Below, piece after piece: positions 14,463-17,254 of a stretch of 38,668 bases of DNA. The notes under the pieces were generated by a model. That model saw only the letters and a program-made list of their open reading frames with translations. It was not told the DNA's origin and did not search any database. Location of the stretch: contig JASJDT010000014.1 of NCBI GenBank assembly GCA_030065655.1, forward strand, positions 1 through 38,668, read 5' to 3'. A program made the position numbers and the translations under genes. Every line of letters starts with the position of its first letter. Position 1 is the first letter of the stretch. This DNA comes from Desulfocapsaceae bacterium (GTDB lineage: Bacteria > Desulfobacterota > Desulfobulbia > Desulfobulbales > Desulfocapsaceae).

Positions 14463-14696
14463 AACATACTGAAATTATTTTGGACAACCATCTGTGCTAA
14501 AATATCAGGTGGTAATAAATAATATACTTTCAGGGTAATAAGCTGTTTGTCAAAAATCATTTAAGGAATTTCTTGCCTTTTCATATTTTCAACGTGTATG
14601 CTCAAATCTATAAAACTGGAGAGAGGGGCGTTTTTCTGTTCCGGCAGATATGCGCATTCGGTATAATGGCCTGTGTAGAAACGAGGAATGCAAGTA

Positions 14697-16322
14697 ATGA
14701 AGCATGTTTTCGAAGATCTTCCTTTACCGGCCATACACCTCGATGCCCAGACCAGGATTCTGAAAGCTAATAATCATGCCAGTGAACTCTTTACCTGGCA
14801 AACATTTCCAGCTGAACCCACGTATTTTACCCAATTTCTGCCAATTGAGGAGATCGCTTCTTTTACTGCCTTTTATGAAAAAATAGCCACAGGTCTTGCC
14901 ACTGTCTATAATACGACTATCTGCCTGCCGGGTGAGGTGGAGGCCCAGGTTAACATAAAAGCATCATTGACCAGCAACGATAACCGGATTTTTTTGTTGA
15001 ACAAACAAGATGCCTGGAAAGCCGGTTGTGACCAATCCTGTCGTCATGCAGCTGTTCTTGAAGCACAGTACCAGCAGAACCCGGGTGGTATTCTGTTAGT
15101 CAATGGCGATATGGAAATGATCTCCTTTAATCAGGAGTTTATCAACATCTGGGAAATCCCCCCCGAGGTGCAAAAATCACGGGACGAGAAGGCCAGTTTG
15201 CAGAGCATTCTTGGCAAACTGGTCAAACCGGAAGAATTTATTGCCCGGGTGGAATATCTCTATAAACATCCTCACGAATCAGATACCGATGAGGTGCAAT
15301 TGAAGGATGGTCGCACTCTCTACCGGCATACTTATCCAATCTATAGTCAGGGGGAATATCTTGGTAGAGTGTGGTATTTTCTCGACATCACTACTCTTAA
15401 GCAGGCCCAGCATCAGCTGGAAAAGCAGCAGATATTTCAACAGGCCATCCTGGAACATATCCAGGACGGCATTGTAGCTACAAATGAAAAAGGGGAGGTT
15501 AGCCTGGCCAATAGAGCCAGCCGCAGACTCTACGGTATAGAAGAGACAAATCTATTAACAGACCTCTACACCGATAGAAATTATTATCATACGGATGGCA
15601 TTACACCACTTGCACCCACCGAAGATCCGTTGAAAAAAGTACTAGTGGGCAAAAACCTTGATAATGATGAAATTGTCTTTATCGATGGACAGCGCAAGGA
15701 GCATACTCTGCGGGTAAACGGCCAGGCAATGTATGATGGTGACGGTCAGAAGATTGGTGCTTTTATTTCCATGCACGATATAACCGATCTGCGAGCGGCC
15801 GAAGAGAAACTGCGGTACTTTGCCAATCACGATCAACTGACTGGACTTCCCAATCGTCGCTTGTTCCATGATCTGCTGGAGCAGACATTGAAGCAAGCAC
15901 ATCGTCACGATTTTTACGTAGGTGTTTTATTTTTGGACCTCGATGATTTTAAAGCAGTTAACGATCAGTATGGTCATCATATTGGTGATCAGCTTTTGAG
16001 AGAGGTGGCTTGCACCTTGAAAAATTGCCTGCGCGATTCCGATATTCTCTGCCGTTGGGGAGGAGATGAATTTATTATTGGCTTACCGGCAAGTAAAGAT
16101 AATGCAGGCATTATAAATGTTGCTGAAAAGATCTGTACCGAAGTTCTGCGCTGCATCAAGGAACAGGATAAAAATTTTGAGGTGAGCGTTAGTATTGGTA
16201 TCTCTATTTCACCCACCCACGGCATGGAGCCTGATTTGCTTATCCGTAATGCCGATATCGCCATGTACCGGGCAAAACGTTCCGGTAAAAATAAGTGTGA
16301 GCTGTTTTCCCGCGATCTGTAG
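14697..16322 (+). CDS. PAS-domain diguanylate cyclase (GGDEF)
   Basis: A 541-residue cytoplasmic enzyme that should make cyclic di-GMP from GTP. Three PAS-like sensor modules are visible at about 1-100, 110-235 and 245-370 (for example DGIVATNEKGEVSLANRASR), then a GGDEF domain (about 378-541). The signature GGDEF is at residues 455-459, and the inhibitory I-site RDSD at 446-449 lies exactly five residues before it, so catalysis and product feedback should both work. There is no EAL domain and no transmembrane helix. ATG 14688 is inside the GAGGA ribosome binding region, whereas ATG 14697 has that site 9 bases upstream, so I chose 14697. The gene stands alone; the stop codon overlaps the start of the inverted repeat that follows. 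Confidence 0.93.
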   Translation: MKHVFEDLPLPAIHLDAQTRILKANNHASELFTWQTFPAEPTYFTQFLPIEEIASFTAFYEKIATGLATVYNTTICLPGEVEAQVNIKASLTSNDNRIFLLNKQDAWKAGCDQSCRHAAVLEAQYQQNPGGILLVNGDMEMISFNQEFINIWEIPPEVQKSRDEKASLQSILGKLVKPEEFIARVEYLYKHPHESDTDEVQLKDGRTLYRHTYPIYSQGEYLGRVWYFLDITTLKQAQHQLEKQQIFQQAILEHIQDGIVATNEKGEVSLANRASRRLYGIEETNLLTDLYTDRNYYHTDGITPLAPTEDPLKKVLVGKNLDNDEIVFIDGQRKEHTLRVNGQAMYDGDGQKIGAFISMHDITDLRAAEEKLRYFANHDQLTGLPNRRLFHDLLEQTLKQAHRHDFYVGVLFLDLDDFKAVNDQYGHHIGDQLLREVACTLKNCLRDSDILCRWGGDEFIIGLPASKDNAGIINVAEKICTEVLRCIKEQDKNFEVSVSIGISISPTHGMEPDLLIRNADIAMYRAKRSGKNKCELFSRDL

Positions 16323-16481
16323 CACGGATTTCTCATGAACATTGTGTTGAATTTCAGAAAGTATATTGAGATTCCAACTTCCAGGCTTCAGATTTTCTGC
16401 CTCCTCAAATCAACACAATGTTCACCAAAGGCCAGCTGATCTCACAGACTCGGTGAGATCGGCTGGTGAGAAATCCGTGCT
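16321..16481. repeat. 161-bp nested inverted repeat: 30-bp arms, right arm split by a hairpin insert
   Basis: The left arm is 16321-16350. Its exact 30-base reverse complement is present but in two pieces: 16410-16424 and 16467-16481. The pieces are separated by 42 bases (16425-16466) that themselves form a 14-bp hairpin (16432-16445 with 16453-16466, one G-T pair, 7-base loop). The 59-base spacer between the arms allows further pairing (CAGAAA 16355-16360 with TTTCTG 16394-16399). As RNA it would be a long helix with a side hairpin (three-way junction). The element starts on the last bases of the diguanylate cyclase stop codon. No T-run follows, so simple termination is unlikely. It could be a structured RNA or a mobile palindromic element. 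Confidence 0.85.
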
Positions 16482-16651
16482 GGTCATATACGAGTGGCAT
16501 CATAAAGCCTGCACCCCTGGCAAACCTCCTGTTGTAATGGAGAAAAAATCTTGCCCCGGCCATAGTCTTATACTACACTGGAATAACAAGCCATATCAGC
16601 GTAGTTCTTGACTGGGGCCGGACATTCTTTCAACGGTGCTTTGGAGAACCT
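16482..16651. other. Intergenic stretch between the inverted repeat and the ParB-like gene
   Basis: These 170 bases hold the promoter and leader for the ParB-like gene. A TTGACT at about 16607 could be a -35 but has no good -10 at the right distance. An open frame of 81 codons crossing the repeat and this stretch has no ribosome binding site or recognisable protein. Confidence 0.4.
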
Positions 16652-17254
16652 ATGAAAATAGCAATTGATCTGATCAAAGTTGACGACGAAGTTCGCATAC
16701 GCAGAGAAATAGGCAATCTACAACCACTTGTCGATTCCATTGGCAAGGTTGGTCTGATAAACCCCATCCTCATCGATGAACAGAGTAATTTGATAGCCGG
16801 TTATCGGCGTTTAGAGGCCTGTAAAAAGCTGAAGATGGAAGAGGTAGAGGTCAAGATCGTAGAATTTGGCGGGGATATGTTGAAAAAACTAGATGTTGAA
16901 CTTGCCGAGAATTTTTTTAGAAAGGATTTTACCCCGCATGAGGTGTTGGCTTCGGAGATGCGACGGCAAGAAATAATTGAGTCAACCCGCAAAAAAGGCA
17001 TGTTCGAGCGTTTCTGGTTATGGCTAAAAAGTCTCTTTTCAGCTGATCAATCCTCTATCAAGAAAACTTACCGTGAAACTGCACCTTCCAGTGAAAAGGT
17101 TGCTGCCAAAAAAGTTCAGGATGATCAGCAGGAAGGCTCTTCAATTGTCCATGGTACAACTTCGGATGAGCATGAAACAACGCAGGAAGCGCAAATAGCA
17201 GGCCATACAATACCTCGACAGGATGACCACAGCATTAAGTGGCGAACATCCTAG
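16652..17254 (+). CDS. Orphan ParB N-terminal-domain protein
   Basis: A 200-residue protein whose first 100 or so residues are a ParB/Srx-type domain: LQPLVDSIGKVGLINPILI (23-41), the GYRRLEA box (50-56, corresponding to the ParB GERRxxA motif that binds nucleotide) and ENFFRKDFTPHEV (87-99). The helix-turn-helix and dimerisation parts of true chromosome-partition ParB are absent. After an amphipathic aromatic stretch (FERFWLWLKSLF, about 117-128) the rest is polar and probably disordered. There is no parA neighbour and no visible parS. GGAGA precedes ATG 16652. It may be a regulatory or plasmid-derived ParB-like protein; the function is unknown. Confidence 0.8.
   Translation: MKIAIDLIKVDDEVRIRREIGNLQPLVDSIGKVGLINPILIDEQSNLIAGYRRLEACKKLKMEEVEVKIVEFGGDMLKKLDVELAENFFRKDFTPHEVLASEMRRQEIIESTRKKGMFERFWLWLKSLFSADQSSIKKTYRETAPSSEKVAAKKVQDDQQEGSSIVHGTTSDEHETTQEAQIAGHTIPRQDDHSIKWRTS

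Follow-up and report, generated by a model that had tools for sequence, protein, structure and literature searches.

The stretch of DNA analysed here, referred to below as the window, comprises 38,668 nt of a contig (JASJDT010000014.1) from a Desulfocapsaceae bacterium, and the feature under study is located directly at the 3' end of a gene encoding a diguanylate cyclase. The 30 nt at 16321-16350, AGCACGGATTTCTCATGAACATTGTGTTGA, pair perfectly (30/30) with two half-arms of 15 nt each, at 16410-16424 (TCAACACAATGTTCA) and at 16467-16481 (TGAGAAATCCGTGCT). The half-arms are separated by 42 nt (16425-16466), in which the segment CCAAAGG is followed directly by a stem of 14 bp that includes one G-T pair, CCAGCTGATCTCAC/GTGAGATCGGCTGG, closed by the loop AGACTCG. 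The predicted RNA fold of 16310-16495 reaches -81 kcal/mol, compared with -45.2 ± 4.3 kcal/mol for shuffled sequences (z = -8.3; 0/200 shuffles).

The inverted repeat interrupted by a hairpin is thus real and lies where the initial annotation had placed it. So does its start on the cyclase stop codon, the TAG at 16320-16322, which overlaps the left edge of the element; because the GGDEF domain of the cyclase is complete, this stop codon is the native one. The T-run of a terminator, already reported as lacking, was not found, nor was a promoter-like site. The parts of the window copy are listed in Table 1, under the arm names of the full-length copies described below. Downstream of the element, at 16652-17254, an open reading frame of 200 aa contains a weak ParB N-terminal-like domain, scoring below the Pfam cut-off.

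Table 1. Features of the element and its upstream gene in the window
Feature	Position	Strand	Basis or remark
PAS-GGDEF diguanylate cyclase, upstream	14688..16322	+	GGDEF domain profile 1-161/161, complete
Left 4-bp target-site duplication GTAG, its TAG being the cyclase stop	16319..16322	+	Model position 1-4; target-site duplication test
Left terminal inverted repeat, 5' strand of stem P1, CACGGATTTCTCA	16323..16335	+	Family consensus CCCGGATTTCTCA
Arm P2, 5' strand	16336..16353	+	Fold, pairing and model alignment
P2 loop, variable among genomes	16354..16406	+	Alignments
Arm P2, 3' strand	16407..16424	+	Fold, pairing and model alignment
CCAAAGG junction segment	16425..16431	+	CCC-TTCG-GGG in distant copies, read as mini-hairpin P3
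P4 arm stump (14-bp stem, 7-nt loop)	16432..16466	+	About 64 nt of tip absent relative to sister copies
Right terminal inverted repeat, 3' strand of stem P1, TGAGAAATCCGTG	16467..16479	+	
Right target-site duplication, decayed	16480..16483	+	CTGG vs. GTAG

A dispersed repeat family and its fold

A BLAST search of the window's own genome (G000), a check proposed in the initial annotation, found the 181-bp segment at 24 other strong places with 79-92% identity, and two additional copies (L041 and L042) were recognized. This genome therefore holds at least 26 copies; a relative has about 100. As is typical of MITEs, these numerous dispersed copies have no coding capacity and are bounded by terminal inverted repeats, here of 13-16 bp with CCCGGATTTCTCA at both ends. 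The family consensus can be written as TAG-CCCGGATTTCTCA-TGAACATTGTGTTGAATTT-(loop)-AAATCAACACAATGTTCA-CCAAAGG-CCAGCCGATCTCACCGACTCTGCAGCGTTGCC...GGCAACCTCGGCTGG-TGAGAAATCCGGG-CTA, and its length is about 221 bp, or about 229 bp with the duplications. Counted with its target duplications, the window copy retains 165 of these approximately 229 nt and is internally deleted.

Full copies are multi-way junctions composed of the terminal stem P1, formed by the terminal inverted repeats, the arm P2, a CC..GG mini-hairpin and the long arm P4. The CCAAAGG segment is nearly invariant in alignment A3, while CCCTTCGGG, CCCTGCGGG and similar sequences occupy its place in other classes. Several copies (L035, L036, L039, L044, and L045) lack P4 and carry the uninterrupted 30-bp repeat, and in the mirror case two copies of about 133 bp (L041 and L181) consist of the terminal stem and arm P4 only; the element is therefore modular. 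A truncated repeat copy (L049) in the relative G016 directly adjoins a stretch which, judged by eye, resembles a cobalamin riboswitch.

Similar folds were obtained for three full copies taken from different genomes, with z values from -6.6 to -10.6. RNAalifold applied to 20 copies gave 53 pairs, 27 of them with compensatory change, and in an alignment of 93 copies, which was fitted to the covariance model and hence leans towards it, compensatory change was found at 34 of the 53 pairs (0/500 shuffles), with 502 double-change cells vs. 154 after shuffling. Sliding the pairing partners abolishes the pairing in this alignment. Seven distant copies, aligned separately, follow the same plan and have 41 of 64 pairs compensated; they possess an additional CCC..GGG mini-hairpin, which makes the structure a four-way junction. 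The earlier suggestion of a junction with several arms therefore stands as architecture, since full-length copies in this and other genomes fold in this manner with compensatory changes.

The source of this covariation deserves caution. The strand test rests on the larger count, made within genomes, since the 20-copy count contained too few independent events; in it, G-U and A-C mismatches were equally frequent (69 vs. 78), and thus nothing points to RNA of one strand. The two arms agree better within a copy than between copies (0/10,000), and the copies of the window's genome contain 19 double-change cells of 18 types, mostly private to single copies. The window copy has such a paired change itself, with C replaced by A at 16324 and a matching change on the opposite strand of the stem. 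Template switching alone can give rise to covariation and to paired arm changes of this kind (PMC8794818), and therefore the covariation demonstrates a persistent fold and is by itself no proof of RNA function.

A covariance model built from 20 copies matched 27 of the 93 genomes of the family, 54 of the 258 of the class and, in a phylum-wide sample of 395, 12 in addition to the window's own. Carriers include Desulfobacterales bacterium GWB2_56_26, the Desulfobacterales isolate Site_B18 and a Desulfobulbus MAG, and Desulfopila aestuarii gave a partial match. The element family is dispersed, with numerous copies, among the sulfate-reducing bacteria and their relatives (Thermodesulfobacteriota). 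The window gave no match to Rfam at gathering score, and four other copies yielded nothing relevant there up to an E value of 5. Plasmids, phages, and viral contigs gave no match to the repeat, and a description of it was not found in the literature searched.

Target duplications, IS1380 elements and stop codons

The copies are flanked by 4-bp NTAR duplications, another trait of MITEs: identical pairs were found in 22 of 50 copies, while 7.3 were expected (0/10,000 permutations), and offsets 1-8 gave none. For the window locus, an empty site was not found, as the cyclase had no match in the genus at E ≤ 1e-50.

The terminal sequence links the repeat to IS1380-family insertion sequences. In G016, the end pattern was matched 197 times vs. 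once for the reversed control, and two IS1380-family elements of this genome (profile NF033539) carry the terminal sequence of the repeat, CCCGGATTTCTCAT, with ends 1.71 kb apart and 4-bp duplications of their own (CTAA/CTAA and CTAG/CTAG). The IS1380 element and the repeat likewise share ATATTTCA ends in G009 and G163 and TTGCA ends in G613. Sharing of ends with an autonomous partner, as expected of a MITE, was therefore clear in four of the six genomes examined, while G067 and G112 gave no clear agreement; the sequence in common spans only about 14 bp. The target of piggyBac, a group with IS1380 as its outgroup, is TTAA and rarely TTAG, CTAA, or GTAA (PMC10813416).

An IS1380 gene was not found in the window's own assembly, which is 84.5% complete, and a clear IS1380 is missing from 39 of the 49 repeat-bearing genomes. 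On sequence grounds the repeat is likely moved by IS1380 transposases, in these genomes presumably in trans, and the link is good but indirect. The noncoding regions of the tested IS1380 elements did not match the model of the P2-P4 interior, so the repeat is no simple deletion product of any insertion sequence seen here. In copies from other classes (L173 in G613 and L177 in G387), the same interior is enclosed by quite different terminal repeats, of the TTGCA and TTGAGCG types, as though the ends had been swapped and the interior retained. In G016, two overlapping frames encode the IS1380 transposase, with the split at a run of eight A (GTCGCAAAAAAAACAGCC; L097:1287-1304), and a profile search found the same split in another copy from this genome (L098); it could represent a programmed frameshift.

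The elements prefer gene 3' ends in one orientation. In 30 of 112 copies (27%), the start coincides exactly with the in-frame stop (TAA or TAG) of an open frame that lies on the same strand and has 90 codons or more; such stop positions make up at most 4.7% of the noncoding NTAR sites at these loci. Left placement exceeds right placement by 30:8 among these 112 copies (p = 0.0005). The share differs between genomes, reaching 14 of 28 copies (50%) in G000 and G003 vs. 8 of 65 (12%) in four others. Since the target tetranucleotide predates the insertion, an in-frame TAR at this point means that a native stop was the target. Most of ten upstream proteins checked have complete or near-complete C-terminal domains. 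A rougher local control, using sites within 60 nt, gave 1.5-fold at the stop for the left side and 0.4-fold for the right, and because this local excess is modest, we make no claim of true stop targeting. Judged by the identity of their duplications, stop-codon copies do not differ in age from the others (p = 0.52).

A MITE-type element and its alternatives

The feature that had seemed to match no known type is best explained as a decayed, internally deleted copy of a MITE of the Thermodesulfobacteriota, probably mobilised by an IS1380-type transposase, and we assign this reading a probability of roughly 0.85. Such a transposase would recognise the ends and transfer the element, by a cut-and-paste mechanism, to tetranucleotides of the TAR type. 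TAA and TAG stops fit this target, so that an insertion of the element on a stop codon can leave the protein intact. The window copy may have arisen by insertion at the cyclase stop and subsequent loss of the P4 arm tip, after which strand-switch copying between the arms would have perfected its stems; such copying would account for the flawless 30-bp repeat and the clean hairpin. In this genome the element has probably lost its mobility, given that its copies have diverged by about 8-20%, that the right duplication is decayed and that the assembly yielded no IS1380 transposase.

The initial annotation had proposed that a small palindromic element entered an older, plain inverted repeat at 16424/16425. 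As this proposal would predict, two genomes do contain copies composed of P1 and P2 only, with an exact uninterrupted junction, and those in G003 (L044 and L045) have intact duplications. However, full-length sister copies bear a longer arm (P3 and P4) at exactly this point, the hairpin of the window copy corresponds in alignment to the arm's base, and the arm-bearing form is the phylum-wide one, which makes arm loss the simpler direction and the insertion very improbable. From these alignments, the 42-nt hairpin appears to be the remnant of P4 together with CCAAAGG rather than a later insertion. Even less credible is an ordinary intrinsic terminator or a chance palindrome at the end of a gene, which the location directly after the stop codon might suggest: a GC-rich stem followed by a T-run defines such a terminator, and the T-run is missing. 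The many related copies and their covariation refute the chance palindrome, and the one-off structure considered in the initial annotation, with neither a second copy nor covariation, is not what was seen.

A different possibility is a mobile RNA element under selection, whose junction would be transcribed as the 3' untranslated region of the gene upstream and protect or end the mRNA in the manner of REP sequences. The excess and asymmetry at in-frame stops, the concentration of stop-codon copies in G000 and G003, the completeness of upstream genes wherever domains permit checking, and the phylum-wide structure all speak for it. Nevertheless, we consider it unlikely, as G-U pairs are no commoner than A-C, unlike under strand-specific RNA selection, no T-run is present, template switching can by itself yield covariation (PMC8794818), and the excess over local sites is small. 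Also doubtful, though slightly more tenable, is a phylum-wide mobile structured family in which the junction itself has a function, either as the substrate of transposition or as an mRNA 3' end that travels with the element. Such a family would settle in sense orientation at stop codons because its target is a stop codon. Any host function is speculative.

REP/BIME and ERIC repeats are, like the present family, palindromic and extragenic and often occur at gene 3' ends; however, the repeat described here is larger and multi-armed, with IS1380-like ends and 4-bp duplications. The transposases associated with REPs are of the Y1 (RAYT) type, while the terminal inverted repeats, 4-bp duplications, and IS1380 ends of this family point elsewhere. 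With IS1380-family insertion sequences (PF13701, NF033539) and piggyBac it shares the terminal repeat sequence and the 4-bp NTAR/TTAA-like target, but it has no transposase gene, and its interior derives from no insertion sequence seen here. Bacterial MITEs such as MITEAba12 and those of Coxiella (PMC6382973, PMC5896051) are similarly short and non-autonomous, with terminal inverted repeats, target duplications, many copies, and a noncoding interior. In contrast to them, the present repeat combines IS1380-type ends and stop-codon enrichment in one orientation with a single, conserved, covarying multi-way junction found phylum-wide. It is thus a MITE-type element, new as a family and unusual for this conserved junction.

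MITEs usually derive from a single insertion sequence, have a narrow distribution and do not last long. Here, the same fold is retained in different families and classes of the phylum, with terminal repeats that vary according to the end type of the resident IS1380, and the question is raised why a passenger would keep a covarying interior. The private paired substitutions constitute a natural data set for distinguishing template switching from selection as the cause of covariation. The coincidence of NTAR with TAA and TAG provides a simple rule that lets a mobile element sit harmlessly at gene ends, where it may possibly supply 3' structures.
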